Positions 8,835 to 47,581 of a stretch of DNA of 50,947 bases are shown here, piece after piece. The notes below the pieces were generated by a model. The model had not been told where the DNA came from and made no database searches. It worked only from the letters and a program-made list of their open reading frames with translations. The translations under genes and the position numbers were made by a program. The DNA lies in contig JAOAHQ010000024.1 in assembly GCA_026415155.1 (NCBI GenBank), positions 1 to 50,947 of the forward strand, in the 5' to 3' direction. The stretch's first letter is position 1. Each line of letters opens with the position of its first letter. The stretch comes from Rhodocyclaceae bacterium (lineage in GTDB: Bacteria; Pseudomonadota; Gammaproteobacteria; Burkholderiales; Rhodocyclaceae).

Positions 8835-8853
8835 CCGTCCCGCCAGCGCCGAC
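8835..8853 (+). repeat. dispersed 19-nt motif, exact copy in the fdxA-der gap
   Basis: CCGTCCCGCCAGCGCCGAC, exact and intergenic. The other copies are at 14517 (1 mismatch), 18767 (exact), 25513 (inverted, 2), 28445 (3), 29035 (1), 33938 (2), 37521 (2) and 47291 (inverted, 1). All but this one lie inside genes. Confidence 0.75.
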
Positions 8854-8911
8854 CTGTTAAGGCGCGGCCGCGCCAGTGCAGCATCCTCGCTTTTGGTCGG
8901 TTGTGCAATGC

Positions 8912-10249
8912 TCACTCCTTGTCGACGTAGGGGTTCCTGCCGCTCTTCAACTGGATGCGCAAGGGCGTGCCTTGCAGCCGGAAGGCTTCGCGAAAGGCGT
9001 GTTCGAGATAGCGCAGATAAGCCGGCGGCACGTGCTCCAAGGCATTGCCATGGATGACGATGACGGGCGGATTGCTGCCGCCTTGATGGGCATAACGCAG
9101 CTTGGGCCGCACGTTGCCATGCCGGGGGGGCGCTTGCTTTTGCACGGCCTCCTGTAACACCCGCGTGAGCTTCGGCGTCGGCAGCTTCGCCATCGCGGCC
9201 GCATAGGCCCTGTCGACTGACTGCATGAGGCCGGCCAGCCCCTGCCCTTTAAGCGCCGAGATGGTGTGCGTGCGCGCAAAGCCGAGGAAATTCAGCTTGC
9301 GTTGGATGGCCTGCTTGACCTGCTCGCGGCGGTAGGCATCGACGGCATCCCACTTATTGACCGCCAGCACCAGCGCCCGCCCGGCATCACAGCAAAAGCC
9401 GGCGATGTGCGCGTCCTGATCGGCGATGTCTTGGCTTGCATCGACCAAGAGCACGACGACATTGGCGGACTCGATGGCCTGCAAGGTCTTCACCACCGAG
9501 AACTTTTCGACCGCGGCGAAGACGCGCCCTTTGCGGCGCAGCCCTGCCGTGTCGATCAGCGTGTAACGCTTGCCATTCCTCTCGAAGGGCGTGGCGATCG
9601 CATCGCGCGTCGTGCCCGGCAGGTCGAAGGCGATCATGCGCTCTTCGCCGAGCAGGGCGTTGATGAGCGTGCTCTTGCCGACATTGGGCCGGCCGACGAT
9701 CGCCACGCGGGGGCCGCCCGCTTCGGCCGCCGCGGGTGCTGCCTCCGCTTCGGTCTCGGGAAAGTCGGCGAGCACGCGCTCGATGAGCTCGCGCACCCCA
9801 TCGCCATGCGCCGCCGAGATCACGCGCGGCAGACCACAGCCAAGCTCGTAGAACTCCGCCGCGACGAGGTCGCGGTTCATGCCTTCGGCCTTATTGACGA
9901 CGAGGTAGAGGCGCTGGCCACGGCGCCGCAGCCGTTCGGCGATCAGCTCATCCTGCGGTGTCAGGCCTTGACGGGCATCGACGACGAAAAGCAGCGCATC
10001 GGCCTCGGCGATTGCCGCCTCGGCCTGACGCGCCATCTCATGCTCAATGCCTTCCTTCGCCTGCGGTTCGAAGCCGCCGGTATCGACAACGATGTAAGGC
10101 CGCGGCCCCAGCCGGCCATGCCCATAGTGGCGATCGCGCGTCAAGCCCGGCTGATCGGCAACCAATGCATCGCGCGACTTCGTGAGGCGATTAAAGAGCG
10201 TCGATTTGCCGACGTTGGGCCGGCCGACGATGGCGAGGATGGGCAGCAT
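8912..10249 (-). CDS. der: ribosome-assembly GTPase Der (EngA)
   Basis: Tandem-GTPase required for 50S subunit maturation. The 445-residue protein has two Walker A motifs, GRPNVGKST at 9-17 and again at about 186-194, each with its own G3 (DTGG / DTAGL) and NK.D motifs, followed by a KH-like C-terminal domain ending near the [18 protein letters not shown] segment. Its ATG at 10249 overlaps the bamB stop by one base (TGATG). The minus-strand order hisS-yfgM-bamB-der is the standard one in proteobacteria. Confidence 0.97.
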
Positions 10250-11421
10250 CAGCGCGCCGTCAGGGCAAAGAGCCCGCCCGCGCGGGTCTGGAGGACGAAG
10301 GCCTGCGGCCCGAGCGGACGCGGCGGCGCGGCCACTGCCGAACCATCGGTGCTCGAGCGCGCGAGGAAACGGCCATCGTCACCAGCCAATAAATGCACGT
10401 AGCCTTGAGCGTCGGCAACGACGAGACGCTCACCGAGCGCCAGCGGACGCGACAGGCCGCGCATGAAGAGCTTGTCCTGCTTCCAGAGGCTCGCGCCGGT
10501 CGCGCGGTCGAAGGCATGGAGCGTGCCCTTGTCGTCGCTGACATAGACGTGGCGCTCGCCGACGTCGAGGCCGGCCACCGAGGAGACGTCGCGCGCCCAG
10601 GCCTGCCGGCCGTTGGCCGCATCGAAACAGGCCACCCGGCCTTGAAAGGCCACCGCACAGACGAGTTCGCCGGCGAGGACGGGTTCGCTCGCCACGTCGG
10701 CGATGCGTTCAAGCTCGGTGGCGCCGCGCGGCAGCGCGACGGTGGCTTCCCAAAGCGCCGCACCGTTGTGCAAGGCGATGGCGACGAGCTTGCCACCGGG
10801 AAAGCCCGCATAGAGCGCCTTGTCGGTCAGCGTGACGCCGACGTTTGATCGCAGCGCCAAGGGCGGCGTGCTGCGCTGATAGACCCAGCGGCGGCGGCCA
10901 TCGGCGGCCTCGAAGCCGAAGAGGCGCGCGTCATTGCTCCGCACGACAACGAGATCACCGACCACGGCCGGCGCGGCGAGCACTTCTGAGCTTGCGCGCG
11001 CCTGCCAAGCCGGCTTGCCGTCGGTAGCCGTGAAGGCGAGCACCTCGCCCTTCGCCGTGCCGACGACGACGAGCTTGCCATCGGCGCCGACGCCGCCCGA
11101 GAGCGGCTGTCCGGCCTCGATGCGCCAGACGAGGCGGCCCTCGTCGAAGCGCGCCAGCGTGCCATCTTTCGCCGCGGCATAGACGCTCTTTCCCACCACG
11201 GCCGGCGTGAAGACAAACTCGCCTGCGCCACCGACATTCGCCTGCCAAAGCGTCGACAGCTCGGCCGTAGCCTGGAAGGATACGAGCTCGGCAGGTTTGG
11301 CCTTCGGCGCCGATTTACTGAAGGGATTGAGGCTGTCGAGCGTATTGCTGACGGTCGAGCAGGCCGTAATCAACAGCGCAACGAGCGCGAGGGCGGCCCT
11401 TCTCACGCCGCACCTCCGCAC
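10249..11421 (-). CDS. bamB: outer-membrane assembly lipoprotein BamB
   Basis: Lipoprotein subunit of the BAM complex that inserts beta-barrel proteins into the outer membrane. The 390-residue precursor has a signal peptide with lipobox LITAC (lipidated Cys21), then about eight PQQ-like beta-propeller blades (repeated G.L.ALD/FD..TG...W patterns such as [16 protein letters not shown]). The start overlaps yfgM's coding end by 19 nt. It sits between yfgM and der as usual. Confidence 0.95.
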
Positions 11422-12065
11422 GCATCGCGTTTTGCCCGCAGGATGTCGAGATACGCGTCGGTGGGCCCTTCGGCATTCTTGCGCTCGGCTTCGAGCGCCT
11501 CGATCGCATCGCCATAGGCTTGCCTGGCCGCTTCGCGCTTACCCTGGGCGAGCAAGACGTCGCCGCGCGCCTCGAGGTAACGCGCCTTGAAACTCGGCGC
11601 CGGCGGAACGGCCAAGAGCTTGAGCGCCGCCTCGTAGTCCTGCGCCTCGGCGAGCACAAGGGCTTGCCGAAGACGCGCCAGATCGCGCAGCGCCTCATCC
11701 CGCGCATGTTCGGCCGCCCATCCGTACTGCGCCGCCGCCGACTTGAGATCGCCCGATTCGGCGAGCGCCTTGCCGGAGAGCAGCGCTCCCATGCCGGCAT
11801 AGGCCGTGCCGGCATATTTGTCGATGAGCTCGCCGGCCAACAGGCGCATGCGCTTCGTATCCTGCTGGCTCATCGCCTGCTGCATGGCCGCGTAGAGCTC
11901 GCCCGCCTGCGCGGCCTGGCTGCGCTGCCACCAGTTCCAGCCCTGCCAGCCGACGACGGCGACGGCAAGCGCCGTGACGATCGAGGTCACCCAAGTGCCA
12001 TGCAGTTTCCACCAGGTCTTGAGTTCTTCGAGCTGCTCTTGCTCTTCGAGATCATAGGTCGCCAT
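11403..12065 (-). CDS. yfgM: YfgM-family TPR membrane protein
   Basis: A 220-residue inner-membrane protein (DUF2133/YfgM) starting MATYDLEEQEQLEELKTWWK; the frame is open further upstream but only as antisense-free read-through in hisS. One transmembrane segment (about 25-45) is followed by TPR-like repeats facing the periplasm. In E. coli YfgM works with PpiD at the Sec translocon. The start at 12065 lies 2 nt after the hisS stop. Confidence 0.9.
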   Translation of the reverse strand: MATYDLEEQEQLEELKTWWKLHGTWVTSIVTALAVAVVGWQGWNWWQRSQAAQAGELYAAMQQAMSQQDTKRMRLLAGELIDKYAGTAYAGMGALLSGKALAESGDLKSAAAQYGWAAEHARDEALRDLARLRQALVLAEAQDYEAALKLLAVPPAPSFKARYLEARGDVLLAQGKREAARQAYGDAIEALEAERKNAEGPTDAYLDILRAKRDACGGAA

Positions 12066-12067
12066 CT

Positions 12068-13363
12068 TCAATCCTCGTTCACTGCCTCGTCGCGGCCATA
12101 GAGCCAGTCGCTCACCGCCTCGGCTAGATTCGCTATTGGCACGCGCCACTGTTCGATCGCCACGCGCAAGGGCTTTAAGCTCACTTCGTTCTTTTGCACT
12201 TCGTCCTCGCCGATGAGGACGGCTAGCTGCGCACCCGAGGCATCGGCGCGCTTCATCTGCGACTTGAAGCTGCCACCGCCCATGTGCGTGAGCACCGCGC
12301 AGCCGACATCGCGCAAGGCCTCGGCGGCGCGGAAGGCAAGCCGCACGGCGCCTTCGCCCTGATGCACGACATAGACATCGGGGGCGGGAGAGGCTGGCAG
12401 CTCCCCTTCTGCTTCGAGAAGCGCCATGAGCCGCTCGATGCCTAGCGCGAAACCACAAGCGGGCGCGCGCTTGCCGCCGAGCTGCTCGATCAGGCCGTCG
12501 TAACGTCCGCCCGCGCAGACCGTGCCTTGCGCGCCGAGCCGGTCGGTCACCCACTCGAAGACGGTCAAGTTGTAGTAATCGAGCCCGCGCACGAGGCGCG
12601 GGTTGATGCGATAAGGAAGCCCAGCGTCCTTGAGGAGCTGCTGCACGCCCTCGAAGTGCTTGAGCGAGTCTTCGCCGAGATAGTCGATGAGCTTCGGCGC
12701 CGCCTCGACGAGCGCTTGCATGGCCGGATTCTTCGTATCGAGGATGCGCAAGGGGTTCGTATGGAGACGGCGCTTGCCGTCGTCGTCGAGCGCATCGAAG
12801 TGTTTTTCGAGATAACCGATCAGATCGGCGCGGTGCCGGGCACGTTCCTCGGGCTGGCCGAGCGAGTTGATCTCGAGCGTGATGCCGTGGAGCCCGAGAT
12901 CGTCCCACAGCCGCGCGCACATGAGGATCTGTTCGGCATCGATGTCGGGGCCAGCGAGCCCCAGCGCCTCGACGCCCACCTGGTGAAACTGCCGGTAGCG
13001 CCCTTTCTGCGGCCGCTCGTGGCGGAACATCGGCCCCATGTACCACAGGCGCTTGGGGCCATCGTAGAGCAGGTTGTGCTGCAGCACCGCGCGCACGCAG
13101 GAGGCCGTGCCCTCGGGACGCAAGGTGAGCGCCTCGCCATTGAGCGCATCGGTGAAGGAATACATCTCCTTCTCGACGATGTCGGTCACCGCACCGATGG
13201 CGCGCGCGAAGAGGGGGGTGGGCTCGACGAGCGGCATGCGGATCGGGCGGTAGCCGTAGGAAAACAGCCAGTCGCGCACGAGCTCCTCGAAGGCCTCCCA
13301 GCGCTCGGCTTCGGGCGGCAGGATGTCGTTCATGCCGCGAATGGCTTGCAGGGTCTGGCTCAT
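12068..13363 (-). CDS. hisS: histidyl-tRNA synthetase
   Basis: Charges tRNA-His in the cytoplasm. The 431-residue class II synthetase has motif 1 around [12 protein letters not shown], motif 2 [20 protein letters not shown], the histidine-specific [15 protein letters not shown] and AGGRYDGL segments, motif 3 [12 protein letters not shown], and a C-terminal anticodon-binding domain. Its ATG overlaps the ispG stop by 4 nt (ATGA). Confidence 0.97.
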
Positions 13364-14595
13364 GAATGCTGCGGATATTTCTGCTCGACGTAGGCGTCGA
13401 TGAGTTTCCTGAATTCGGCGGCGATGTTTTCACCTTTGAGCGTGGTGATCCGCTCGCCATCGGCATAGACAGGGGCGACGGGCGCTTCGCCTGTGCCGGG
13501 CAGGGAAATGCCGAGATTGGCGTGCTTGCTCTCGCCGGGGCCATTGACGACACAGCCCATCACGGCGATGGTCATCGCTTCGACGCCGCGATGTTTGAGC
13601 CGCCACTCGGGCATCTTGGCGCGCACATAGCCTTGGATGTCGCTTGCCAGTTCCTGAAAAAATGTGCTCGAAGTGCGCCCGCAGCCCGGGCAGGCGATCA
13701 CCATCGGCGTGAAGGCGCGCAGCCCCATCGCCTGCAAGATCTCCTGCGCGACGACGACCTCCTTGGTGCGGGGTTCATTCGGCTCGGGCGTCAGGGAGAC
13801 GCGGATCGTATCGCCTATGCCTTCCTGGAGCAGCACGGCGAGCGCCGCCGTCGAAGCGACGATGCCTTTCGTGCCCATCCCCGCCTCGGTGAGCCCCAGA
13901 TGGAGTGGATAGTCGCATTTCGCCGCCAAATCGCGATAGATCGCGATCAGATCCTGCACGCCGGAGACCTTGCAGGAGAGTACGATCGCATCGCCGGCGA
14001 GCCCCAGCCGTTCGGCTTGCTGAGCCGATTCGAGGGCCGAAGCGACCATTGCCTCGCGCATGAGCCCCGTCGCGTCCTTGGGCTTAGGGCGCCGCGCGTT
14101 CTCGTCCATGAGGCGCGCCAGCAAGTCCTGATCGAGGCTGCCCCAATTGACGCCGATGCGCACTGGCTTGCCATACTTGCAGGCAAATTCGATCATCTGC
14201 GCGAATTGCTCGTCGCGCTTTTTACCCTTGCCGACATTGCCCGGATTGATGCGCAGCTTGTCGAGCGCCGCGGCACATTCGGGCACCTCCGCGAGGAGCT
14301 TGTGGCCATTGAAATGGAAGTCGCCGACGAGCGGCACATCGAGCTGCCACTGAAGGAGCCGTTCCTTGATCTTCGGCACCGCCATCGCAGCCTCGCGGGT
14401 ATTGACGGTGACGCGCACGATCTCGGCGCCGGCGCGATGAAGCTCCGCCACCTGTGTGGCCGTCGCCTGCACATCGGCGGTGTCGGTATTGGTCATCGAC
14501 TGCACGACCACGGGCGCCGTCCCGCCAACGCCGACTTTGCCGACCCGCACCAAGCGCGTCGGCCGGCGCACTGGAAATTTCCCCGTCTCCATCAT
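13360..14595 (-). CDS. ispG: 4-hydroxy-3-methylbut-2-en-1-yl diphosphate synthase
   Basis: Iron-sulfur enzyme of the MEP isoprenoid pathway, converting MEcPP to HMBPP. Starting at the ATG at 14595 ([12 protein letters not shown]) gives 411 residues. The family opening [14 protein letters not shown] and the cluster cysteines in [12 protein letters not shown] plus [17 protein letters not shown] are present. Residues about 20-26 (KVGVGGTA) are encoded by one copy of the dispersed 19-nt motif described in the findings. The start overlaps the rodZ stop (ATGATG). Confidence 0.96.
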
Positions 14596-18008: not shown

Positions 18009-18214
18009 CCCAGATTGTCCATTAGACCGGGCAGGTGATCGATGAAGAGACTTTTCGACACACGCAGAGCCCTACGCGGCGGCTTGCGGGCTGCGGACGG
18101 GCGCCGCCCGCCCACGCTCCTCGCCCATAGGCCCCGCTTCTGGCGAGGCCCGCGGCCCGCCATCTCCTCGCCCTCGCCGGCGAGCGCCGCTCGCGTTCCA
18201 ATGGACAATCTGGG
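18009..18214. mobile_element. 206-bp miniature inverted-repeat element, copy A
   Basis: The element begins CCCAGATTGTCCATTAGA and ends with the inverted copy (AATGGACAATCTGGG): a 15-bp perfect terminal inverted repeat, with partial matching beyond. It is bounded by a 5-bp direct repeat TTGAA (18004-18008 and 18215-18219), as expected for a target-site duplication. A second copy of the same length lies at 35057-35262. The outer ends are nearly identical in the two copies, while the middle has diverged. There is no recognisable transposase, so it would be moved in trans. Ends starting CC.AGATT with 5-bp duplications recall IS1380-type elements, but this is only inference. Confidence 0.85.
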
Positions 18215-18602: not shown

Positions 18603-19937
18603 TCATGACAGCGCCTTGAGGCGGCGCAAGCGCCGGTAGAGCGTGCGCTCGCTGATGCCAAGTTCCGCAGCGAGCGACTTGCGATTGCCGCGATGCGCCG
18701 CAAGCCGTTCGCGCAACACGGCCGCTTCGAGCTCGGCGAGCGTGGCCGTGGCCTGAGGCACGCTGGCCGTCCCGCCAGCGCCGACTTTCGCAGCACCATC
18801 GTTTCCCGCCGTCTGCACTTCGAGCGGCAGATGTTCAGGCAGGATCGTCTCGCCATCGCACAAGAGCGTGGCGCGCTCGAGCACATTTCTCAGCTCGCGC
18901 ACATTGCCCGGATAATCGTAGGCCATCAGGCAGCCAAGCGCCGCATCAGAGAGCTTGAGTTCCCGCCCCGGCGCTACGCGCGCCAAGAGCGCCTCGGCCA
19001 GGAGCGGAATGTCGCTCGCCCGCTCGCGCAAGGGAGGCAGGCAGATCGGGAAGGTGTTCAAGCGGTAATAAAGATCCTGACGGAAGCGCCCCTCCTCGAC
19101 CATCGCGCGCAGATTGCGATGAGTGGCCGAAATGAGCCGCACATCGGCCTGCAGGAATTCGTTGCCGCCGACGCGCCGGAAGGTGCCAGTTTCCAGCAAG
19201 CGCAAGAGCTTGACCTGCATCCCCAGCGGAATGTCGCCCAGTTCGTCGAGAAACAGTGTGCCGCCCGAAGCCGCCTCGACAAGCCCGATGCGCCGGCTCG
19301 ACGCGCCCGTGAAAGCGCCCTTTTCATGACCGAACAATTCGCTTTCGAACAATGTCTCGGTGAGCCCAGAACAATCGACGGCGATGAAGGGCCGCGCGGC
19401 GCGGCGGCTGGCGTCGTGGATCGCCTTGGCGACGAGCTCCTTGCCAGTGCCCGACTCGCCTTGCAGCATCACGGTCGCATCCGAGGGCGCGACGCGGGCA
19501 ATGAGTTCCAGCATGCGCCGGAAGGCGGGCGCGCGGCCGACGAGGGCAGGCGCCTGCCCTTCGCCATGGGGCCCGCTCAAAGGCTCGATCTTCTCGACGA
19601 ACCAGGCGATCGCGCCGCTTGCATCTCGCACGGGGGCAAGCTCGATATTCACGTAGGTCTCGCCTTTGGGCGTGTGGTGGAGATGCAGCACGCGCTCGCG
19701 CTGCCCAGAGACGAGGCTGCGTTTGAGCGGGCAGGTTTCGCCGGCCTTGTCGCAAGGGGCGTCATAGCGGTGCGAGACGGCATAACAGGTTTGCCCGATC
19801 GGCGACAGATCGGCGCCGAAATCGCGCCGGTAAGCGCGATTCGCAGCCTGGATGCGGTAATGCACGTCGCAGACGATGTGCGGCTCAGGAAGGGTTTCGA
19901 GGTAATCGACGAGCTCGACGGGGGGTTTAGCGGTCAT
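18603..19937 (-). CDS. PAS-domain sigma-54-dependent transcriptional activator
   Basis: A 444-residue enhancer-binding protein. Residues about 8-120 form a PAS domain with a distinctive metal/redox-like pattern C51-x4-H56-x5-C62-x6-C69 (CYAVSHRYDAPCDKAGETC) plus C23. The central AAA+ domain has Walker A GESGTGKE (160-167), the sigma-54 contact loop GAFTGA (207-212), Walker B GGTLFLDE (225-232) and the arginine-finger region FRQDLYYRLN. A Fis-type helix-turn-helix ends the protein (about 415-441, RKSLAAELGISERTLYRRL). The linker at about 383-391 (AKVGAGGTA) is encoded by an exact copy of the dispersed 19-nt motif. It is divergent from the SLAC1/TDT transporter and very probably activates it. 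The ligand is unknown. Confidence 0.9.
   Translation of the reverse strand: MTAKPPVELVDYLETLPEPHIVCDVHYRIQAANRAYRRDFGADLSPIGQTCYAVSHRYDAPCDKAGETCPLKRSLVSGQRERVLHLHHTPKGETYVNIELAPVRDASGAIAWFVEKIEPLSGPHGEGQAPALVGRAPAFRRMLELIARVAPSDATVMLQGESGTGKELVAKAIHDASRRAARPFIAVDCSGLTETLFESELFGHEKGAFTGASSRRIGLVEAASGGTLFLDELGDIPLGMQVKLLRLLETGTFRRVGGNEFLQADVRLISATHRNLRAMVEEGRFRQDLYYRLNTFPICLPPLRERASDIPLLAEALLARVAPGRELKLSDAALGCLMAYDYPGNVRELRNVLERATLLCDGETILPEHLPLEVQTAGNDGAAKVGAGGTASVPQATATLAELEAAVLRERLAAHRGNRKSLAAELGISERTLYRRLRRLKALS
18767..18785 (+). repeat. dispersed 19-nt motif, exact copy inside the sigma-54 regulator
   Basis: Exact copy, extended on both sides by GG and TTT as in most other copies. It encodes part of the non-conserved linker before the regulator's helix-turn-helix. 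Confidence 0.75.
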
Positions 19938-21055: not shown

Positions 21056-21250
21056 GGCCACGTCCATCGCTCCGCCGGGCTCGCATTGCACCGTGGCCGG
21101 GCGCGGCTGTGGCGCGCCCCCGAAGAGCGCCTGGATGCGCGGCTCGGCGCGCGCCAGCAGCGCGGGATTCTGCCGATAGACCATCAGCAGGAATTCGCGG
21201 TTGGCCTCGATCTCGCGGATTAAGCGCAGGTGACGCTCGCCTTCGCTCAT
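20963..21250 (-). CDS. small hypothetical protein paired with a nucleotidyltransferase
   Basis: A 95-residue protein. The first 50 residues (EGERHLRLIREIEANREF, then LLMVYRQNPALLARAEPRI) look like an amphipathic helical domain. The rest is low-complexity and is read antisense through the 3' end of the transporter, so the C-terminus may be a recent read-through extension. The ATG at 21250 overlaps the stop of the nucleotidyltransferase gene (ATGA) and is preceded by GGAG, so translation is coupled. No family is recognised with confidence; the arrangement suggests a two-gene toxin-antitoxin-like module. Confidence 0.6.
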   Translation of the reverse strand: MSEGERHLRLIREIEANREFLLMVYRQNPALLARAEPRIQALFGGAPQPRPATVQCEPGGAMDVASFRHADFAAHDGQRRSHGKQGEHEAENGEQ

Positions 21251-21741
21251 GAGCTTTCTCCATCACGCAGTTTTTTGAGTGCTTCGAGGTCGATCCGATC
21301 CTTGCTTCGCTGCGAAGCCGCCTTCATCGCGATGAGGTGATCGATCGAGGCCACGGGAACGCGATAAGGGCCTATATCGAGCAAGATGGCCTCGCGGCGC
21401 AGATCGGCATAGGGAACCGGCGAGGCAATCAGCACATCCAGCACGGTGGCTTGCGCCTCTCTCCCTTGCAAGGCAAAGGCCAGCATGCCCTTCTCGCGCC
21501 GCCACTGCTCCAGCCGCTCCGGCTGGGCGAGCGATTCGAGCGGCACGGGCATGACAGGCCGCAGGCCCGCAGCACGGGCATGCGCTATGAAGCGCTCAAG
21601 GTTGGCTGGCTCCATCGCCAGCACGACATCGACATCCATCGTCACGCGCGGATAGCCATGCAGCGCCACAGCCAGGCCGCCCACCAGCACATACTCGGTT
21701 TCGCTTTCCGCGAGGAGCTTGATGAGTTCGTACATGCCCAT
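21247..21741 (-). CDS. nucleotidyltransferase-fold protein (AbiEii/minimal-NTase like)
   Basis: A 164-residue protein using the ATG at 21741, which has GAGG 7 nt upstream. The pattern VLVGGLAVALHGYPRVTMDVDVVL (about 18-41) is the pol-beta nucleotidyltransferase core: GG followed by the paired metal-binding aspartates D36 and D38. A later third carboxylate may be in TVLDVLIAS. A final helix KAASQRSKDRIDLEALKKL is typical of stand-alone NTases (DUF1814/AbiEii relatives), where K..R.K.R.D..DL..L recurs. Such proteins occur as antitoxin or toxin partners in two-gene modules. It is coupled to the 95-residue gene downstream. Confidence 0.75.
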   Translation of the reverse strand: MGMYELIKLLAESETEYVLVGGLAVALHGYPRVTMDVDVVLAMEPANLERFIAHARAAGLRPVMPVPLESLAQPERLEQWRREKGMLAFALQGREAQATVLDVLIASPVPYADLRREAILLDIGPYRVPVASIDHLIAMKAASQRSKDRIDLEALKKLRDGESS

Positions 21742-24863: not shown

Positions 24864-25850
24864 TCACTCGATTTCGATCAGGGTGGCGAGCTGTTCATAC
24901 ACCTCGCCTTTTCTGTCCTTGTGGCGAATCTTGATCGGCAGCCAGCTGTCGGCGTCGAGCCAAACGAGGGTCTCCTCGTTGCCGGCAACGATCGTATAGG
25001 CACGCGCCGAACGCACCCCCTGCGGCAATTCGACGGGAGCGACTGGGCCGACCGTCACGGCGTAGGTGGAGACCCGGCGCCCGGCGGCGACCGCCACACC
25101 CAAAGGCGTCTCGGCCTCGAGCACGCCGAGCTGATAGAAGATCGACAAGAGATCCTGCGTGCCGGCCACAAACTCGACGCGCAGACCGTTGATCTCCACC
25201 GAGTTTTCCTCAGGGAGGAAACGGATGCGCTCCTTGAGCTTGTCGTTCTGCCAGCGCTCGAATGCAAGCGGCCGCAGGCCATGGGCATCGAAGCGGCCGC
25301 GGCTTTCCTGCACGACCTCTACGGGTCTGAACAAGGCCGCCAGGCCCGTCGTGCGCGTCTTGGCAACGAGCTCATAGCGCTCACCGTCGTGCTGCCAGCG
25401 CTGCTCGCTCTCGCCGATCACGAAGCCTTCGCCGCGTATGACCCGAAAGACGATGCGCCCGGAGGCCGGCAGCCGGCCAATGCGTGGCGGCAAGGGGGAA
25501 GAAGGCGCGAAAGTCGGCGCCGGCGGCACGGCCTCGGCGATCGATGCCGGCGGCTCGGCAGACGCAGGCGGCTCAGAAGCACTGGCTTCGCCAGCCGGCG
25601 GCGTTGGAACTTCGGGCATTGATGGCGCGGCAGGAGGCTTGGGCGGCGGGGATGGCGCTTTCCTCGCCGGCTGGGGCTTGATCGGTGTGGGCAATGGAGT
25701 AGGCGGCGGCAGAAGGAGCGTGGCATCGAGCGTCCTCGCTTCCTCTTCCTGCGGCAAAGACCAGCCGGGCGAGCAGAGCAAGGCGGCATGAAGGAGCAAG
25801 GACAAAGCGAGCGCGAGCCAAAACGAGCGCCGCGCGCCCAGCGCGTACAT
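24864..25850 (-). CDS. DUF3108 domain protein, membrane-anchored
   Basis: A 328-residue protein. A signal/anchor helix (FWLALALSLLLHAALLC) is followed by a long Pro/Ala/Glu-rich linker (about 35-130) and a C-terminal DUF3108 domain (about 135-328, with GRFDAHGLRPLAFERWQN). DUF3108 proteins are predicted periplasmic with no proven activity. In the linker, AVPPAPTF is encoded by a variant of the dispersed 19-nt motif in inverted orientation. The gene begins one base after the purN stop and ends 4 nt before the rsmB start. Confidence 0.85.
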   Translation of the reverse strand: MYALGARRSFWLALALSLLLHAALLCSPGWSLPQEEEARTLDATLLLPPPTPLPTPIKPQPARKAPSPPPKPPAAPSMPEVPTPPAGEASASEPPASAEPPASIAEAVPPAPTFAPSSPLPPRIGRLPASGRIVFRVIRGEGFVIGESEQRWQHDGERYELVAKTRTTGLAALFRPVEVVQESRGRFDAHGLRPLAFERWQNDKLKERIRFLPEENSVEINGLRVEFVAGTQDLLSIFYQLGVLEAETPLGVAVAAGRRVSTYAVTVGPVAPVELPQGVRSARAYTIVAGNEETLVWLDADSWLPIKIRHKDRKGEVYEQLATLIEIE

Positions 25851-27863: not shown

Positions 27864-29657
27864 ATGCCCCGCATTCATCCCCTCCCTGATCTTCTCATCA
27901 GCCAGATCGCCGCCGGCGAGGTCGTCGAGCGGCCGGCCTCGGTGCTCAAAGAGCTCCTCGAAAACAGCCTCGATGCCGGCGCGACGAAGATCGAGGTGAC
28001 GCTCGAAGCCGGCGGCGTGAAGCTGATCCGCGTCGCCGACGATGGCACCGGCATCGAAAAGGAGGACTTACCCCTGGCACTTTCTCGCCATGCGACGAGC
28101 AAGATCGCCAGCCTCGCCGATCTCGAAGCCGTGGCGAGCTACGGCTTTCGCGGCGAGGCGCTCGCCGCGATCGCCGCCGTGGCGCGCGTCACCCTGACGA
28201 GCCGCACGGCGGATGCGCCGCATGCCTGGCACATCGATGCATCGAGCATGGAGGTCAAGCCTGCGGCGCTTGCCGCCGGCACGGTGGTCACGGTCGCCGA
28301 CCTTTACTTCAGCACGCCGGCGCGCCGCAAGTTCCTCAAAAGCAGCGCTACCGAATTCGCCCATTGCGACGAGGTGCTCGTGCGCATGGCGCTCGCCCGC
28401 CCCGACGTCGCCTTTGCGCTGAGCCACGATGGCAAACCCAAGCGCCGTCTGGCGAGCGCCGACTTTACCGGCCGCATCGAGGCGCTCTTGGGCCGCGAAT
28501 TCATGGCCCATGCGCGGGCGGTGGAGGCGCAAGCCGGCCCCTTGCGGCTTTCTGGCTATGCCGCGCTGCCGGCCTATGCCAAGACGACGCGCGATGCGCA
28601 ATTTTGCTTCGTCAATGGCCGCTTCGTGCGGGATAAGCTGCTCATCCATGCGGCACGCCAGGCCTATGCCGACGTCTTGCATGGCGCCCATCAGCCCGCC
28701 TATGTGCTCTTTCTCGAACTCGATCCGTCAGCCGTCGACGTCAATGTCCATCCGGCCAAGACCGAGGTGCGCTTTCGCGACGCGCGCGGCGTGCATCAGT
28801 TCGTCCTGCATGCCCTCGAACGGGCGCTCGCCACGCCGCTCGTTTGCATCGGAGAACCTCTCACGCTCACGCCGAACGATCCTCGCGCCTTTGCGCACGA
28901 CAGGGAAGCCAGGCCGCCGCAGCGCATTGCTTACGCGCCTGCATCGAGCTATAGCCAGACCGAGCTTGCCGTCGAGGAGCCGACAGCGCAGGCGGCCGCC
29001 TATCTCGAATTCGCCCGCCAGGCCTTCGCCACGGCCGTCCCGCCAACGCCGACTTTTCCGGCAGACGCGGCCGCCAGCGCACCCTTGGGCTATGCGATTG
29101 GGCAGCTCGCCGGCATCTACATCCTCGCCCAAAACGCGCAGGGGCTCGTGCTCGTCGACATGCATGCCGCCCATGAGCGCATCCTTTACGAAAAGCTCAA
29201 ACGCGCCGCCGACGCTTCTCCTGCCGTGCAGCCGCTGCTCGTGCCGCTTCTCTTTTCCGCCAGCGAGAAGGAATTGGCCTGCGTCGCGGAGCATCAAGAA
29301 ACGCTTGCCTCGCTCGGCTTCGAAATCGCGCCGGCCGGGCCCCAGCAGCTTGCCGTGCGCGCGGTGCCGGCGCTCCTCGCCGGCGCTGACCTCGCTAGAC
29401 TCGCCCGCGCCCTGCTCGCGGAACTCATTCATCATCCCGCCAGCCGCGTGCTGGAAACACATCGCAACGCGATCCTCGCCACGCTTGCCTGCCACGGTGC
29501 GGTGCGCGCCCGCCGGCAGCTCTCCATTGCGGAAATGAACGCCCTCTTGCGTGAGATGGAGGCCACTGCCCGCGCGGATCAGTGCAATCACGGCCGGCCG
29601 AGCTGGGTGCAGCTAAGCCTCACCGAGCTCGACCGCCTCTTCATGCGCGGCCGATGA
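27864..29657 (+). CDS. mutL: DNA mismatch repair protein MutL
   Basis: A 597-residue protein starting MPRIHPLPDLLISQIAAGEV; an upstream in-frame ATG at 27852 is less likely because homologues begin here. The GHKL ATPase motifs ENSLDAGAT (E33, N34) and GFRGEAL are present. The C-terminal domain carries DMHAAHERILYE, ACHGAVRA and CNHGRP, close to the DQHA(x)2E(x)4E, ACR and C-P/N-HGRP set of MutL endonucleases, unlike E. coli MutL; only the Q is changed, to M. The linker (about 390-398) contains a copy of the dispersed motif, encoding AVPPTPTF. A second, weaker copy lies at 28445. Confidence 0.95.
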   Translation: MPRIHPLPDLLISQIAAGEVVERPASVLKELLENSLDAGATKIEVTLEAGGVKLIRVADDGTGIEKEDLPLALSRHATSKIASLADLEAVASYGFRGEALAAIAAVARVTLTSRTADAPHAWHIDASSMEVKPAALAAGTVVTVADLYFSTPARRKFLKSSATEFAHCDEVLVRMALARPDVAFALSHDGKPKRRLASADFTGRIEALLGREFMAHARAVEAQAGPLRLSGYAALPAYAKTTRDAQFCFVNGRFVRDKLLIHAARQAYADVLHGAHQPAYVLFLELDPSAVDVNVHPAKTEVRFRDARGVHQFVLHALERALATPLVCIGEPLTLTPNDPRAFAHDREARPPQRIAYAPASSYSQTELAVEEPTAQAAAYLEFARQAFATAVPPTPTFPADAAASAPLGYAIGQLAGIYILAQNAQGLVLVDMHAAHERILYEKLKRAADASPAVQPLLVPLLFSASEKELACVAEHQETLASLGFEIAPAGPQQLAVRAVPALLAGADLARLARALLAELIHHPASRVLETHRNAILATLACHGAVRARRQLSIAEMNALLREMEATARADQCNHGRPSWVQLSLTELDRLFMRGR

Positions 29658-33671: not shown

Positions 33672-34412
33672 ATGCGCGCGCATCTTACCGTAATCCCAAG
33701 ATTGCCCTTGCCCCAGCTGCTCCTCGATCTCCAACCGCCCCAGCCGCCGACGCTGGACAACTTCATCGCCGGCGAAAACCACGAGCTCATCGCGCGCCTT
33801 GCCGCCCTCGCGGCGCCGGGCTGTTTCGACGCGCTCTATCTCTGGGGCGGGGCAGGCTGCGGCAAGAGCCATCTGCTCGCCGCGACCGCGAGCCTCGCCC
33901 TGCGCCGCCGCCCCGCCTTGCTGCTCGAAGGCATGCGCCGTCCGGCGAGCGCCGACTTTCGGGCCCCACCCGGCGGCCTCGTCGTCGTCGATGATGTCGA
34001 CCAGCTCGAGGAAGAGGCGCAGATCGCGCTCTTTCGCATCTTCAACACGGCGCGCCTGGCCGGCCTGGGCCTTTTGTTGGCAGGCTCCAAGCCGCCGCTG
34101 AAACTAAAACTGCGCGAAGACCTCAGGACGCGCATCGGCCAGATGCTCATCTATGAAGTCAAAACCTTAAGCGATAGCGAAAAGGCCGCCGCCTTGCAGC
34201 GCCATGCGATCGAGCGCGGCCTCAAGGTCGATGACGGCCTCGTGAATTACCTGCTCACGCACGGCCGGCGCGATCTGCCCTCCCTGATGGCGGTGCTCGA
34301 CCATCTCGACCGCGCCACACTCGAGCGTAAGCAGCACGCGACCTTGCCGCTCTTGAAAGAAATCATGCAACTCTCCCTCCTGCCGAACGACCATGAATCT
34401 CGCTCTGTTTGA
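33672..34412 (+). CDS. hda: DnaA-inactivation regulator Hda
   Basis: DnaA-homologous AAA protein that, with the sliding clamp, stimulates hydrolysis of DnaA-ATP and limits initiation. The ATG at 33672 follows GGAGG by 4 nt and gives 246 residues. The N-terminal PQLLLDL resembles the clamp-binding motif. The P-loop [11 protein letters not shown], Walker [12 protein letters not shown] and the lid are present. Residues around ASADF (about 94-98) are encoded by a variant of the dispersed motif. Its last 20 nt overlap the start of the HAD hydrolase. Confidence 0.92.
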
Positions 34413-35056: not shown

Positions 35057-35262
35057 CCCAGATTGTCCATTAGACCGGGCAGATGATCCATGAAGAGACT
35101 TTCCGACACTCGCAGTGCCCTACGCGGCGGCGCTCGGGCTGCGGGCGGCATCTCTGCGCCCGTGCTCCTCGTCCAGAGGCCACGCTATGGACTCGTCGCA
35201 CGAACGCAGATCTGCTCGCCCTCGCCGGCGAGCGCCGCTCGCGTTCCAATGGACAATCTGGG
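35057..35262. mobile_element. 206-bp miniature inverted-repeat element, copy B
   Basis: Same length and same terminal inverted repeats (CCCAGATTGTCCATT / AATGGACAATCTGGG) as the element at 18009-18214. It is bounded by a 5-bp direct repeat ATGAT (35052-35056 and 35263-35267). About the first 80 and last 45 bp are nearly identical to copy A; the middle differs substantially. It sits between the stop codon of the HAD gene and the promoter region of the antitoxin gene. Confidence 0.85.
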
Positions 35263-35987: not shown

Positions 35988-37325
35988 ATGATCCGCAAGC
36001 TCCTGCGCCGCGTCTTTTTGCGCGGCGAACCCGCGCATCGCCCCGCCGAGCTGATTCCCGCCGAACGCCACGGCATTCGTCCCGAGCAGGTCTCGGCTGC
36101 CGCACGCCGCACCTGTGAGATCCTGCAAGCGGCCGGCCACAAGGCCTATGTCGTCGGCGGTGCGGTGCGCGATCTGATTGCCGGCATCCAGCCCAAGGAT
36201 TTCGACGTCGCCACCGATGCAACCCCAGAGCAAGTGCGGGCGCTGTTCCGCCGCTCGCGCATCATCGGCCGGCGCTTTCAGATCGTGCATGTGCTCCATG
36301 GCGCCGAGACGATCGAGGTCTCGACCTTCCGCGCCGCGCATGACGAGGCGACCCTCAAGGACGAACACGGCCGCGTGCTGGCCGACAACGTCTGGGGCAC
36401 GATGGAAGAAGACGCCGCGCGGCGCGATTTCACGATCAACGCGCTCTACTACGATCCGACGACGCAACAGGTATTCGACTATCACCACGGCGTGCGCGAT
36501 CTGCAACGAAAGACCTTGCGCATGATCGGCGATCCGCGCGCGCGTTACCGCGAAGACCCGGTGCGCATGCTGCGCGCCGTGCGGCTTGCCGCCAAGCTCG
36601 ATCTGCGCATGGATCCGCAGGTCGAGGCGCCAATCCGCGAGATGGCGCCGCTCATCGAGCACGTGCCGGCCGCGCGCCTCTTCGACGAGATGCTGAAGCT
36701 CCTCTTGTCGGGCCACGCCGTCGAAGCCGTGCATCGCTTGCGCGAAGCAGGCCTGCACCACGGCCTGTTGCCGCTGCTCGACGTCATCCTCGAACAGCCC
36801 TTGGGCGAAAAATTCGTCATGTTGGCCCTCGAGGACACCGACCGGCGCGTCAAGGAAGGACGGCGCACCTCGCCGGGATTTCTCTTTGCCACGCTGCTTT
36901 GGCACGAAGTGCTCGCCAACTGGCAAGCCCGCCAGCAAGCGGGCGAACTGCCCGTGCCAGCGCTTAACGCCGCGATGGACGAGGTGCTCACGGTGCAAGG
37001 CGAGAAGCTCGCCATCACGCGGCGCATCATCGGCGACATCAAGGAAATCTGGCTCATGCAGCCGCGCTTCGACAAACGCGCCGGGCGCGCCCCCTTTCGC
37101 CTCGTCGAGCAGCCGCGCTTTCGCGCCGCCTGGGATTTCTTGCGCCTGCGCTGCGAAAGCGGCGAAGCCCCGATGGAACTGGCCGACTGGTGGGCGCGCT
37201 TTGCCGCCGCCGACAACGCCACCCGCGAGGCGATGCTCAAGCCCACCCCCGTCGGCACGAAAAAGCGCCGCCGGCGGCGTAGCAGCCGCAAGGCGGATGA
37301 TGCAGCAGCGGTCGCGGCCGAATGA
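35988..37325 (+). CDS. pcnB: poly(A) polymerase I
   Basis: Adds 3' poly(A) tails to RNA, promoting decay. The 445-residue protein has the class II nucleotidyltransferase signature VVGGAVRDLIAGI followed by KDFDVATDATPEQV with its catalytic aspartates, FRAAHDE, and the RRDFTINALYY motif. A long C-terminal domain ends in a very basic tail (KKRRRRRSSRKADD), typical of PcnB rather than CCA-adding enzymes. The ribosome-binding site is weak. It overlaps folK by 4 nt. Confidence 0.93.
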   Translation: MIRKLLRRVFLRGEPAHRPAELIPAERHGIRPEQVSAAARRTCEILQAAGHKAYVVGGAVRDLIAGIQPKDFDVATDATPEQVRALFRRSRIIGRRFQIVHVLHGAETIEVSTFRAAHDEATLKDEHGRVLADNVWGTMEEDAARRDFTINALYYDPTTQQVFDYHHGVRDLQRKTLRMIGDPRARYREDPVRMLRAVRLAAKLDLRMDPQVEAPIREMAPLIEHVPAARLFDEMLKLLLSGHAVEAVHRLREAGLHHGLLPLLDVILEQPLGEKFVMLALEDTDRRVKEGRRTSPGFLFATLLWHEVLANWQARQQAGELPVPALNAAMDEVLTVQGEKLAITRRIIGDIKEIWLMQPRFDKRAGRAPFRLVEQPRFRAAWDFLRLRCESGEAPMELADWWARFAAADNATREAMLKPTPVGTKKRRRRRSSRKADDAAAVAAE

Positions 37326-37813
37326 GTCTCTTGGCTTACGTCGCGCTTGGCGCCAATCTCGGCGAGCCTGTGGCCACCGTGCGTGCGGCCATCGATGCCT
37401 TGGCCAGGCTCTCCGGCGCGCGTCTTATCGCGGCTTCCTCGCTTTACCGCACCGCGCCGGTCGGGCTCAAAAACCAGCCGGATTTCATCAATGCCGTCGC
37501 CGCGCTCGAAGTGGATGAGGCCGTCTGGCCAGCGCCGACTTTTCTCGCCGCACTCTTCGACATCGAGGCCGCCTTCGGCCGCGTCCGCAGCGTCAAGAAC
37601 GCGCCGCGCACGCTCGATTTGGATCTTTTGCTCTACGGCGAGCTTTGCCTCGCATCGCCACAATTGACGCTGCCGCATCCGCGCCTCGCCGAGCGCGCCT
37701 TCGTCTTGGCCCCCTTGGCCGAAATCGCGCCGGGGCTGGCCATCCCCGGCCACGGGCGGGTCGAGAGGCTGCTTGCGCGCATCACCGACCAGCGCATCGA
37801 AAGGCTGCCGTAA
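37322..37813 (+). CDS. folK: 6-hydroxymethyl-7,8-dihydropterin pyrophosphokinase
   Basis: Transfers pyrophosphate from ATP to the pterin in folate synthesis. The 163-residue protein has YVALGANLGEP at the start, SSLYRTAPVG, and the metal-binding APRTLDLDLLLYGE, followed by LPHPRLAERAFVLAPLAEI. All family signatures are intact. Residues about 67-73 (AVWPAPT) are encoded by a variant of the dispersed 19-nt motif. pcnB-folK-panB is a standard proteobacterial order. Confidence 0.96.
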   Translation: MSLLAYVALGANLGEPVATVRAAIDALARLSGARLIAASSLYRTAPVGLKNQPDFINAVAALEVDEAVWPAPTFLAALFDIEAAFGRVRSVKNAPRTLDLDLLLYGELCLASPQLTLPHPRLAERAFVLAPLAEIAPGLAIPGHGRVERLLARITDQRIERLP

Positions 37814-42524: not shown

Positions 42525-43787
<1,263 letters not shown>

Positions 43788-43859
43788 TTTGTCCTGCCGT
43801 TTCGAGCATAATGCGCCGCTTTCCCGCGACGTGCTCGCACAGGTTTCAAGGACATCCCC

Positions 43860-44075: not shown

Positions 44076-44096
44076 GCGGCGATCGTCCCGTGCTAG

Positions 44097-44126
44097 AAAA
44101 GGCAGCCTTGGCTGCCTTTTATTTTT
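44097..44126 (+). terminator. terminator after rpmE
   Basis: AAAAGGCAGCC / GGCTGCCTTTT stem with a 2-nt TT loop, followed by ATTTTT. The A-tract on the left would also let it work in the other direction. Confidence 0.85.
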
Positions 44127-44145
44127 GGGCCATGGGCTTGTCACG

Positions 44146-45759
44146 ATGAACCTCGGCGCACGCCTTGCTCGCCCGCTCCTGCCGTGGGGATGGCTTGCGC
44201 TGCTGGCGGCGCTCTATCTGCTCGCCGGCACGGCCGCTCATGATCCCTGGAAGGCCGAAGATGCCATTCATCTCGGCATCGCCTATGGCTTCGCGCAAGG
44301 CGACGACTGGCGCTTCCCGCATATCGCCAATGAGCCCTGGCCGCATACCGCCCCGCTCTATCACTGGCTCGCCGCCCTGTTGGGCCTTCTGTTGGGCGAT
44401 TTCCTCGATTTCCACAACGCCGCGCGGCTTGCCACCGCCGTCTTTGGTGCCATTTTCCTGACGGGTCTTGCCGGCGCGGCGCGCGCCTTCTTCGACGCAG
44501 CCGCCGCGCGCTTGGCCCCCCTGCTCGCCTTGGGCACGCTGGGGCTCATGCTGCCGCTTCACGAAGCCCAGCCAGCCGTGGCAGGCCTTGCCGGCGCTGC
44601 GCTCGCCTGGTGGGGCGGGGCGCTCCTCTGGCAAAACGAGCGACCGCGGCGCGGCGCGCTGCTCTTCGGCCTCGGTATCGGACTCGCCTTCCTCGCCCAT
44701 GGCCTCGCCGGCCTCGTGATGGCATCAGGCGCCCTCTTGCCCTTGGCTTTGCGGCGCGATGGCCTCGCCTGGCTACTCGCGACACTCACCGCACTGCCCC
44801 TGTTCCTGTGCTGGCCCCTGCTCGTCGAGCCAACGGCCCCCGGGCTTTGGGCGAGCTGGTGGGCCAATGAGCTCGCCGAGGCCACCACCGCCCGCCGCTG
44901 GCCTGCGCCGCGGCACCTCAAGGAGCTCCTCGTCAATGCCTGGCCGCTGTGGCCGCTCGCGCTCTGGAGCCTGTGGCTCAAGCGGCGCGATTGGCGTCCG
45001 CTTTTCGCGCCGGCGGCTGGCAGCGTGCTTGCGCTCCTGTGGTATCTCTCGGGCTCGCCGCGCCCGTTGAGCCTCTTGCCGCTCATCTTGCCGCTCGCCT
45101 TGCTCGCCGCCGCAGGCGCAGCGCAGCTTAAGCGCGGCGCGGCGAACGCCTTCGACTGGTTTGCGCTCATCACCTTCGGCTGCGCAGCCGCCCTCGTCTG
45201 GCTGGGCGCTTCTGCCCTTGCGCTCGGCTGGCCGGCCAAGGTCGCGCATAACTTCGAAAAGCTCGCGCCGGGCCATCTGACGCAGTATTCGCCGCTCGCC
45301 TTGGGCTTTGCGCTCCTCGTCACGCTCGCTTGGCTCGCGACCTTACGCCTGCCCAGAAGCCCCTGGCGCGCCCCGTTTCACTGGGCGGCGGGCTTAGCAC
45401 TGATGTGGTCGCTCGCCGCGACGCTGTGGTTTGCCTGGATCGATCATCACAAGTCCTACCGGCCGGTCGTCGCGGCGCTCAAGGCAGCGCTGCCACCAGA
45501 CTTCGTTTGCCTTGAGCGCATCAATGTCGGCCCCGCGCAGCGCGCCATGCTCGATTACTTCGCCGGCCTGCGCACGGTGCCGCCGGGCAGCCGCGAGCGC
45601 TGCCATTGGCGGCTCGTCATCGACACGGCCCAGCGCGCCTCACCAGCAGGCTGGGAGGAAGTCTGGCGCGGCAACCGCCTCACTGACCGCGGCGAGAAGG
45701 ACGAGCGCTGGATTCTCTACCGGGCTAGAGACGAAGGAAATTCGCCCGGTAATACTTGA
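44146..45759 (+). CDS. ArnT/GT39-like membrane glycosyltransferase
   Basis: A 537-residue protein from the ATG at 44146 with a weak ribosome-binding site; a TTG seven codons upstream is possible but lies in the terminator. It has about twelve hydrophobic segments and the first-loop pattern [20 protein letters not shown], then [18 protein letters not shown]. Acidic residues in that loop are the catalytic feature of GT-C fold enzymes (PMT/ArnT family). Members transfer sugars from polyprenyl phosphates, for example to lipid A. The acceptor is unknown. Its last 35 nt overlap orn on the other strand. Confidence 0.8.
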
Positions 45760-46270
45760 GCTCCTCGATCGACTCGTAGATGTCGGCAAGCGCCTCGTGC
45801 TTGCCGCCTTTCTTGACGCCCTTGGCGATCGCCGGCGCCCAGCGCTTGCACAGCTCCTTGAGCGTCGAGACGTCGAGATTGCGGTAATGGAAATAGGCTT
45901 CGAGCTTCGGCATGTAACGCGCCATGAAGCGGCGGTCCTGGCAGATCGAGTTGCCGCACATCGGCGACTTGCCGGCCGGTACATAGCGCTTCAGGAAATC
46001 GAGCGCCTGGGCCTCGACGGCCGCCTCATCGAGCGCTGAGGAGCGCACCTTGTCGATGAGGCCCGACTTGCCGTGCGTCTTCTTGTTCCACTCGTCCATC
46101 GCCGCGAGCACGTCCTCGGGCTGATGCACGACCCAAACCGCGCTTTCGGCGACGAGTTCGAGCTCGGAATTCGTGATCACGAGCGCAAGTTCGATGATGC
46201 GGTCGCGCTCGGGATCGAGCCCCGTCATCTCCATGTCGAGCCAGACGAGGGCGTGGGCGTCTTGTGCCAT
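45725..46270 (-). CDS. orn: oligoribonuclease
   Basis: DEDDh 3'-5' exonuclease that degrades 2-5-nt RNAs and pGpG, the end product of c-di-GMP breakdown. The 181-residue protein starting [20 protein letters not shown] has the first acidic pair D12 and E14, plus [15 protein letters not shown] and the terminal H...D motif in [16 protein letters not shown]. It is convergent with the GT39-like gene (35-nt tail overlap) and divergent from the M48 peptidase. Confidence 0.96.
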
Positions 46271-46333
46271 ACTTCGTTCCCAGTCAATTACGAATGCCCG
46301 CGCATTCTGGCACAACTGCCCTCGCTTTCCCGC

Positions 46334-47581
46334 ATGGCCGAACGCTTTGCCGCCCTCTTCGTGACGATGCTTGCCCTCTCCACGCTCTTGCGCGCCTGGC
46401 TCCTTGTGCGCCAGGTGCGCTCTGTGCGCGCGCACCGTGAGGCGGTGCCGGCCGCCTTCGCAGCACGCATCTCGCTCGACGAACATCGCCAGGCGGCCGA
46501 CTACACGCTGGAGAAGACGCGCCTTGCGCTCATCGCGCTTGCCGCCGAGGCCCTCTGGCTTTTGCTGCTGACCTTGGGCGGATGGCTCGCGAGCCTGGCG
46601 AGCTTCTGGCAGCGCTCCTTGCCCGATGCGCCCTATCTCGCCGGCCTCATGCTCATCTTTAGCGTCGCCCTCGCCGGTTTCCTCGTCGATCTGCCTTTTT
46701 CGCTCTGGCGCACCTTCGTCATCGAGGCGCGCTTCGGCTTCAACAAGACAACGCCGGCGCTCTTCTTGATTGATCTCGTCAAATCGCTGCTCTTGGCCGC
46801 GCTCTTCGGCGCGCCGCTCGTGCTCACCGCGCTCTGGCTCGTGGACGCGCTGGGCGCACACTGGTGGCTTGGGGTGTGGGCCGTCTGGCTCGGCTTCAAT
46901 CTGCTGCTACTCTGGCTTTACCCGACCGTCATCGCACCGCTCTTCAACAAATTTGTGCCGCTTGCGGAAGGCGAAGTGAAATCGCGCATCGAGGCGCTGC
47001 TGGCCCGCTGCGGCTTCTCGCCGGCGGGGCTGTTCGTCATGGACGGCTCGAAGCGATCGGCGCACGGCAATGCCTATTTCCCCGGCTTCGGCGCTGCCCG
47101 CCGCATCGTCTTCTTCGACACCCTGCTCGAAAAGCTCGCGCCCAGCGAAATCGAGGCGGTGCTTGCCCACGAGCTCGGCCATTTCAAGCGCCGCCATGTC
47201 GCCAAACGCCTCGTCCTCATGGCCGCCGTCTCGCTCGGGCTCTTGTGGCTCCTCGGCGCGCTCATCGATGAGCCCTGGTTCTATGCAGGACTCGGCGCTG
47301 GCGGGACGGCCCCCACCACGGCGCTCGCACTCCTCCTCTTCGTCCTCGTGCTGCCCGTCTTCGCCTTTCCCCTCACGCCGCTCTTCTCGGCACTGTCCCG
47401 CCGCCACGAGTTCGAGGCCGATGCCTTCGCCGCGCAGCAAACGAGCGCGGCCGACCTCGTCCAGGCGCTCGTCAAGCTCTACCGTGACAATGCCGCTACC
47501 TTGACGCCCGACCCGCTCTATTCGCTCTTTCACGATTCACATCCGCCCGCCGCGGCGCGCATCGCCCGCCTCACAGGATGA
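46334..47581 (+). CDS. M48-family (Ste24-like) membrane metallopeptidase
   Basis: A 415-residue protein with about six hydrophobic segments and the zinc-binding HELGH (H279, E280, H283), with the third ligand in [11 protein letters not shown]. The N-terminal CAAX-protease-like domain ([41 protein letters not shown]) places it with Ste24p/M48A-type enzymes, probably membrane quality control. Residues about 320-325 (GAGGTA) are encoded by an inverted copy of the dispersed 19-nt motif. It overlaps rsgA by 4 nt. Confidence 0.92.

Follow-up and report, generated by a model that had tools for sequence, protein, structure and literature searches.

Copies of a repeated motif in the window

The DNA analyzed here, called the window, is the whole 50,947-nt stretch of contig JAOAHQ010000024.1 from a Rhodocyclaceae bacterium (GCA_026415155.1, G000 below), and our subject is a motif that recurs throughout it, inside genes as well as between them. 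Its 19-nt core, CCGTCCCGCCAGCGCCGAC, which is part of a longer motif, occurs ten times in the window with at most three mismatches, while 0.10 copies would be expected by chance and the maximum over 100 shuffles was two. An earlier note on this DNA had listed nine of these copies with correct positions, mismatches and strands; the one at 11593 is new. Its assignment of eight copies to genes also held, as Pfam identified ispG (GcpE), the sigma-54 activator, DUF3108, MutL (twice), Hda, HPPK (folK) and M48, the DUF3108 frame being checked separately. The copies are:

8835..8853, plus strand: exact copy, intergenic, downstream of der (8912-10249, minus strand) and upstream of a ferredoxin gene (8464-8787, minus strand)
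11593..11611, minus strand: three mismatches, within a TPR_21 gene (11403-12071, minus strand), sense; tenth copy, absent from the earlier list
14517..14535, plus strand: one mismatch, within ispG (GcpE; 13360-14592, minus strand), antisense
18767..18785, plus strand: exact copy, within a sigma-54 activator gene (18603-19937, minus strand), antisense
25513..25531, minus strand: two mismatches, in a proline-rich stretch ahead of the DUF3108 domain (open reading frame 24864-25850, minus strand), read as AVPPAPTF
28445..28463, plus strand: three mismatches, within mutL, read as RRLASADF
29035..29053, plus strand: one mismatch, in the mutL linker, read as AVPPTPTF
33938..33956, plus strand: two mismatches, within hda (33708-34412, plus strand)
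37521..37539, plus strand: two mismatches, within folK (HPPK; 37322-37813, plus strand)
47291..47309, minus strand: one mismatch, within an M48 peptidase gene (46073-47581, plus strand), antisense

Form and number of the motif in the genome

By aligning 99 copies from G000, we found the full motif to be an asymmetric, non-palindromic sequence of 23 bp, 5'-GCCGTCccGCCAGCGCCGAcTTT-3', with information falling to about zero beyond some 25 bp. Between 97 and 99 of the 99 copies keep GCCGT, the G at the eighth base of the 19-mer, CGCCG and the subsequent A, and the least constant bases of the 19-mer are 5-7 (C in 85, 69 and 69 copies), 9-11 (88, 85 and 82) and the final C (75). The copies were picked by their closeness to the 19-mer; this selection inflates conservation inside it, while the flanking G and TTT are unaffected. 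The extension by TTT described in the earlier note is borne out by T in 87, 86 and 76 copies at the three positions, whereas its leading GG holds for one base only: one G is present in 98 of the 99 copies, and the second base is G in 45 copies and T in 31.

These 99 copies come from 450,947 bases of G000, in which 18, 32, 23 and 26 were found at 0, 1, 2 and 3 mismatches, respectively, whereas a single fifth-order Markov sequence of equal length gave 0, 0, 0 and 2. Over the genome as a whole (2,384,325 bases in 70 contigs, 83.5% complete), the total reaches 247 when one mismatch is allowed, with 125 copies on the forward and 122 on the reverse strand; the reversed pattern does not occur.

Placement, spacing and strand

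Genes were called with our own script, no external annotation being used. At up to three mismatches, 833,993 bases of G000 contain 199 copies (103 on the plus and 96 on the minus strand), i.e. about one per 4 kb. Genic copies outnumber intergenic ones, sense and antisense copies are both common, and five of the six frames inside genes are used (opp-0 57, same-1 38, same-2 17, opp-2 16, opp-1 1, same-0 0). When every gene was given its longest start, and ten copies in or beside the integron-like array described below were excluded, 44 of 189 copies were wholly intergenic against 7.4 expected, a roughly 6-fold enrichment. This enrichment would suit an element acting at the transcriptional or RNA level, such as a terminator, regulator site or RNA processing signal, and GCGCCGAC followed by TTT could form half a terminator. 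However, sense and antisense copies are alike common, most copies are genic and few have an inverted partner; the last point makes a terminator unlikely, and an RNA-level element of any kind is scarcely credible.

When synonymous codons were permuted within each gene (20 times), the 24, 37, 32 and 36 genic copies at 0, 1, 2 and 3 mismatches compared with means of 0.1, 1.45, 9.7 and 25.6, respectively. Chance, or a bias in codons or composition, can thus claim part of the loosest genic matches as background, and the small excess at three mismatches is much explained by protein and codon content. At 0-1 mismatches it is refuted by 61 observed copies against 1.6, and as an account of the motif as a whole its probability is practically negligible. 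Nor do the copies trace to one shared protein domain. Selection or spread acting on DNA, as proposed in the earlier note, draws support from the codon shuffle, the use of frames on both strands, the intergenic copies, the spacing and the dialects.

In G000 the spacing of copies has a coefficient of variation of 0.69, compared with 0.965 (standard deviation 0.063) at random, and none of 2000 random placements was equally low; spacings below 1 kb number 18 of 188, against 40.9 expected. The three largest motif-free gaps of this sample contain core operons and no evident islands, namely pilus and glutamate synthase genes, nuo and a transporter, and tricarboxylic acid cycle enzymes. The longest, G000 C31:56036-74556 (18.5 kb, GC content 0.588), holds PilM, PilO, secretin and glutamate synthase genes.

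The single-contig relative G017 has 410 copies at up to two mismatches and none of the reversed control. Sampled at 14 stretches, its GC skew is of mixed sign over the first 80 kb and switches sign at about 1.3 Mb; within the first 1.273 Mb, read as one replichore, 94 copies are forward and 100 reverse among the matches listed. There is thus no polarity relative to replication, a comparison suggested in the earlier note, although the strand balance is weaker in G002 (68/49) and G085 (193/150). Evenness in G017 shows chiefly as a scarcity of short spacings, 15 being below 1.5 kb among the matches listed against 39.4 expected (none of 5000 placements as low).

Even spacing and genome-wide spread would also suit a site for organizing or repairing the chromosome, bound inside the cell by a protein that compacts, segregates or recombines DNA, with the spacing serving that task. 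The same role was once proposed for the uptake signal sequences (USS) of Pasteurellaceae and the DNA uptake sequences (DUS) of Neisseriaceae by Karlin et al., as cited in an extract of PMC1939737, which doubts that their spacing is even enough for compaction. The lack of strand polarity, however, tells against a use like that of KOPS (FtsK-orienting polar sequences) or Chi; furthermore, the site is long and asymmetric, its dialects change within one genus, one member of that genus is without it, and it is maintained inside integron-like cassettes. On balance we find such a role unlikely. KOPS and Chi resemble the motif in being dispersed, asymmetric and over-represented, but they are about 8 bp long and polar to replication, whereas the motif is longer and non-polar, and with the strand counts of the G017 replichore stretch they were rejected as models.

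Distribution among related genomes

At up to one mismatch, we surveyed 81 genomes, namely 19 of the same genus as G000, 30 from the rest of the family, each representing a different genus, and 32 from other families of the order. The motif is common to 18 of the 19 genomes of the genus (32-486 copies) and abundant in two of the 30 other genera sampled (336 in G026 and 217 in G019), followed by 14 copies in G040 and 0-4 in the remaining 27; the other families had 0-3. The reversed control gave no match save one in G080, and none in any carrier, which is a further point against chance. Several of the 14 copies in G040, a single contig, are clustered (G040:C1 564-585 kb and 124-135 kb) and are perhaps imports from carriers.

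A scan with MutL placed the window among Rhodocyclaceae/Rhodocyclales records and yielded named relatives, and the genomes of 44 of the 80 MutL loci were searched with a degenerate pattern at up to one mismatch. Since UBA2250 agrees with G016 in its contig coordinates, and thus belongs to the genus of the window, the two sets overlap. High counts were found in RC263 bin 43 (576), UBA2250 (524), Sulfuritalea Bin_4_3_4 (482), S2_15 (435), LaPlata (343), NC_groundwater_1916 (312) and Pavin (184), and a low one in D14 (15); the remaining 36 had 0-2 copies, and the reversed control gave 0-2 per genome, carriers included. The MutL tree puts the window, all seven carriers, D14 and one genome with two copies together in a group of ten rows with support 89/93, below the starred level of the tool. 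The next larger group, which is starred (98/96), adds one Sterolibacterium with no copies. An exact 26-mer including flanks of G000, which are mostly missing from the dialects of the named relatives, gave no match in a genome-contig collection from which near records are perhaps excluded. Among 2.9 million viral contigs, 40 stretches contain the exact 23-mer, though these may include host flanks.

Dialects and orthologous sites

Using iterated matrices, we obtained the following dialect consensuses, with about 2-3 copies per 10 kb:

G000: GCCGTCccGCCAGCGCCGAcTTT, 228 copies
UBA2250: GCCGCCcCGCCaGCGCCGAgTTT, 50 copies
RC263: ACCGTccCGCCgGCGCCGACTTT, beginning with ACCGT, 17 copies
G026: GCCGTCcCGCCAGCaCCGACTTT, 28 copies
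Sulfuritalea: GCCGT.cCGCtAGCGCCGACTTT, 19 copies
G086: GCCGT.tCgCCAGCGCCGACTTT, 46 copies

Certain sites are shared between carriers. At the first mutL site (RRLASADF), six of eight carriers have a copy in the same alignment column, that of Pavin having five mismatches and being broken by an insert. In five of the six carriers having it the motif is gapless, and therefore arose there by substitution and not by insertion. The mutL linker (AVPPxPTF-like) likewise has a copy in six of eight carriers (Pavin again at five mismatches), always in one frame and at differing columns, and no copy with four or fewer mismatches occurs in mutL of seven low- or non-carriers. Ahead of DUF3108, RC263, S2_15, UBA2250 and NC_groundwater_1916 have copies at the matching place with 1-3 mismatches; Pavin has a decayed one there (five mismatches) and LaPlata none.

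These sites bear on the idea that the motif is a short repeat, mobile or selfish, which spreads by making copies of itself in new places. The hundreds of near-identical copies, the differing columns of the linker copies, and the cassettes with one copy and composites with two described below could all be expected of such a repeat. Yet the flanks are unconserved beyond about 25 bp, the first mutL site is gapless and dialects shift genome-wide; the first two points in particular leave a mobile repeat very unlikely.

Integron-like cassettes and other repeats

The end of contig C70 of G000 (L142:2779-10350) holds an integron-like array of intervals between GTTAGN cores in attC-like sites, preceded by an integrase open reading frame with Phage_integrase and N-terminal SAM-like domains; the last end of the array was set by us. 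Exactly one motif copy is found in each of its nine GC-rich intervals (seven of 305-325 bp and two of 420 bp), and none in the other six intervals, which have a GC content of 0.49-0.57 and longer open reading frames. Five homologous cassettes lie on an IMG/VR contig, L279. In the 12 short cassettes (seven from G000 and five from L279) conservation, taken over stretches of 23 columns, is highest at the motif, with a mean pairwise identity of 0.972, as compared with 0.842 for the attC end and 0.731 for the rest, although it must be kept in mind that L279 was found through its motif and that every GC-rich interval of the G000 array carries it. No reading frame is open in all 12, and no third-position pattern was seen (41, 35 and 43 of 62 columns variable). 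The two 420-bp cassettes have parallel frames of 135 amino acids, identical at 103 of 136 positions (stop included) compared with 364 of 421 bases, so that coding is possible in these. While the array resembles other integrons in that the motif elements follow an integrase gene and lie between attC-like sites, its short cassettes differ from the usual ones in sharing no common open frame and having the motif as their best conserved part.

A gapped search detected GTTAG-motif pairs in seven of 61 genomes. Those of G002 and one locus of G010 appeared by eye to be attC-bounded, while the five of G005, the one of G015 and the second of G010 are part of a different repeat. This composite has two direct motif copies about 100 bp apart, one often decayed, around a hairpin-like stretch with GGTTAGCC (L336, L342, L345, L347 and L349 in G005, L344 in G010 and L340 in G015).

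A second enriched sequence, AATGGACAATCTGG, was considered as another tag and rejected, as it forms the ends of an element of about 205 bp. This element, resembling a miniature inverted-repeat transposable element, has the inverted ends CCCAGATTGTCCATT...AATGGACAATCTGGG and occurs in the window at 18010-18213 and 35058-35261, with ten further occurrences in 451 kb of G000. The window also carries an AbiEii-family nucleotidyl transferase gene (21247-21741, minus strand), possibly one half of a toxin-antitoxin pair.

Pilus and competence genes

A type IV pilus machine with PilT, together with ComEC, is present in the genus and frequent in motif-free relatives too. ComEC was detected in 18 of its 19 genomes, the PilT family in all 19 and ComP_DUS (PF16732) in 17. 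G000 has PilM, PilO, a secretin with AMIN domains and 14 pilin-like N-termini, as well as a cluster that we take, from sequence and gene order, to be ispH-pilE-fimU-pilV-pilW-pilX-like; the PF16732 match of this genome is the pilE-like gene of that minor-pilin cluster. Of the type IV pilus genes that the earlier note saw in the window, one probable case is retained among the 49 of 55 called genes that were scanned, and the structural pilus genes are found elsewhere in the genome:

15434..16231, minus strand: TPR protein, probable pilus pilotin PilF, with matches to TPR families only

The name PilF is presumed because that gene customarily neighbours rodZ, ispG and rlmN, and the protein may be part of an uptake pilus. 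The same scan also found a protein with a PilZ domain, of the kind seen in flagellar regulators (YcgR).

The motif as a probable uptake signal

Taken together, we consider it likely, judging from sequence features, that the motif serves as an uptake signal in the natural transformation of a clade of Rhodocyclaceae. From the form, number, placement, spacing, dialects and phylogenetic limits observed, and from the pilus, PilT-family and ComEC genes, we infer a receptor, uptake and drive of the following kind. Extracellular DNA would be bound at its 23-bp site by a type IV pilus receptor, probably one of the minor pilins, PilT retraction would draw the DNA through the PilQ secretin, and ComEC would pass one strand inward, where homologous recombination would replace the resident allele. 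DNA bearing the motif would be taken up and recombined more often, and copies would therefore pile up where they are least harmful, i.e. in intergenic regions, linkers and tolerated frames, and would lie dispersed and in either orientation; dialects would arise because the copies follow drift in receptor specificity.

Several observations weigh against this. The genome G006, of the same genus, has no copies despite its ComEC, PilT and pilins, and in 142 kb of it neither a dialect (iterated matrices) nor a convincing alternative motif (8-12, 14 and 16 bases tried) was found. In G017 the overall coefficient of variation of spacings is only mildly low among the matches listed (0.848 vs 0.992, 60 of 5000 as low), and the longest gap among them, 40.1 kb, is not shorter than chance. 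At most nine of the 199 copies have the inverted partner GTCGGCG within 45 nt, so that inverted-pair terminators are rare. Searches of the 19 genomes of the genus with TIGR00426 and PF12836 gave no recognizable ComEA: TIGR00426 matched only open frames of 620-1723 amino acids, all below cut-off, which we assume to be Tex (four of the 19 had none), and PF12836 added two matches below cut-off in frames of 234 and 382 amino acids. It is possible that another protein replaces ComEA. PF16732 matches 72 of the 81 genomes, carriers and non-carriers alike, and two carriers of the genus lack it; its spread is independent of the motif and it therefore names no receptor. More generally, the receptor could not be picked out by presence and absence, as G006 is not set apart from carriers by PF16732 or by its number of pilins, although part of the pilin loci were compared and a specific pilin may have been missed. 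Lastly, no competence or uptake in these organisms appeared in the literature searched. The link to uptake sequences drawn in the earlier note, which also pointed to competence genes, thus stands in that it fits the genomic features tested and that ComEC and a minor-pilin-like cluster are there, and falls short in the rarity of inverted-pair terminators and the unrecognized ComEA.

Relation to known uptake sequences

The pattern of the motif resembles that of the self tags by which meningococci and Haemophilus tell their own DNA from other DNA when taking it up. The proposed signal is distinct from both the DUS and the USS. For these, an extract of PMC1939737 gives no orientation bias, many copies inside open reading frames and the even spacing reported by Karlin; dialects, permissive positions and many inverted pairs in DUS genomes are described in part of PMC3630211. 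Like the DUS of Neisseriaceae (GCCGTCTGAA), the motif occurs in hundreds of dispersed inter- and intragenic copies lacking orientation bias, has clade dialects, is accompanied by a type IV pilus and ComEC, and starts with GCCGTC. However, the DUS is 10-12 bp long with a conserved CTG core, whereas the motif is 23 bp and no consensus has CTG on the motif strand. Only eight of 199 copies start with GCCGTCTG, with CTG at the DUS position, and GCCAGC, i.e. CTG on the opposite strand, occurs in some dialects, though not in the RC263 or Sulfuritalea consensus. The motif also differs from the DUS in its sparser copies, few inverted-pair terminators, unrecognized ComEA and a receptor and uptake that are putative.

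With the Pasteurellaceae USS (AAGTGCGGT) the motif shares an extended site that has a T/A tract at one end, the lack of orientation bias and even spacing, as reported for the USS. Its reverse strand begins with AAAGT, a likeness to the USS, but the core AAAGTCGGCGCTGGCGGGACGGC differs, there is one short T tract, and the hosts are Betaproteobacteria as opposed to Gammaproteobacteria. Neither AAGTGCGGT nor the second USS core, ACAAGCGGT, is matched by any consensus here.

Neisseriaceae and Pasteurellaceae are mostly host-associated. They are the families named for recognized short uptake motifs in an extract of PMC12616744, and our literature search found no uptake sequence for Rhodocyclaceae or Sulfuritalea, although most subscription journals lay outside it and absence is no proof; UBA2250 is named in one groundwater paper that came up. 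We tentatively suggest that environmental Rhodocyclaceae may hold a further uptake-sequence system that evolved independently, its site long and made of two blocks and its dialects evolving, together with short integron cassettes whose conserved cargo would be one uptake tag, so that arrays would preferentially pass by transformation. If so, self-tagging would extend to a further lineage, found in groundwater, lake and other environmental bacteria (habitats according to the records), and self-DNA tags would arise repeatedly and independently of host life. A clade with several dialects would be well suited to the study of tag-receptor co-evolution, with G006 as a natural contrast within one genus, and integron cassettes tagged for uptake would connect two routes of gene transfer.

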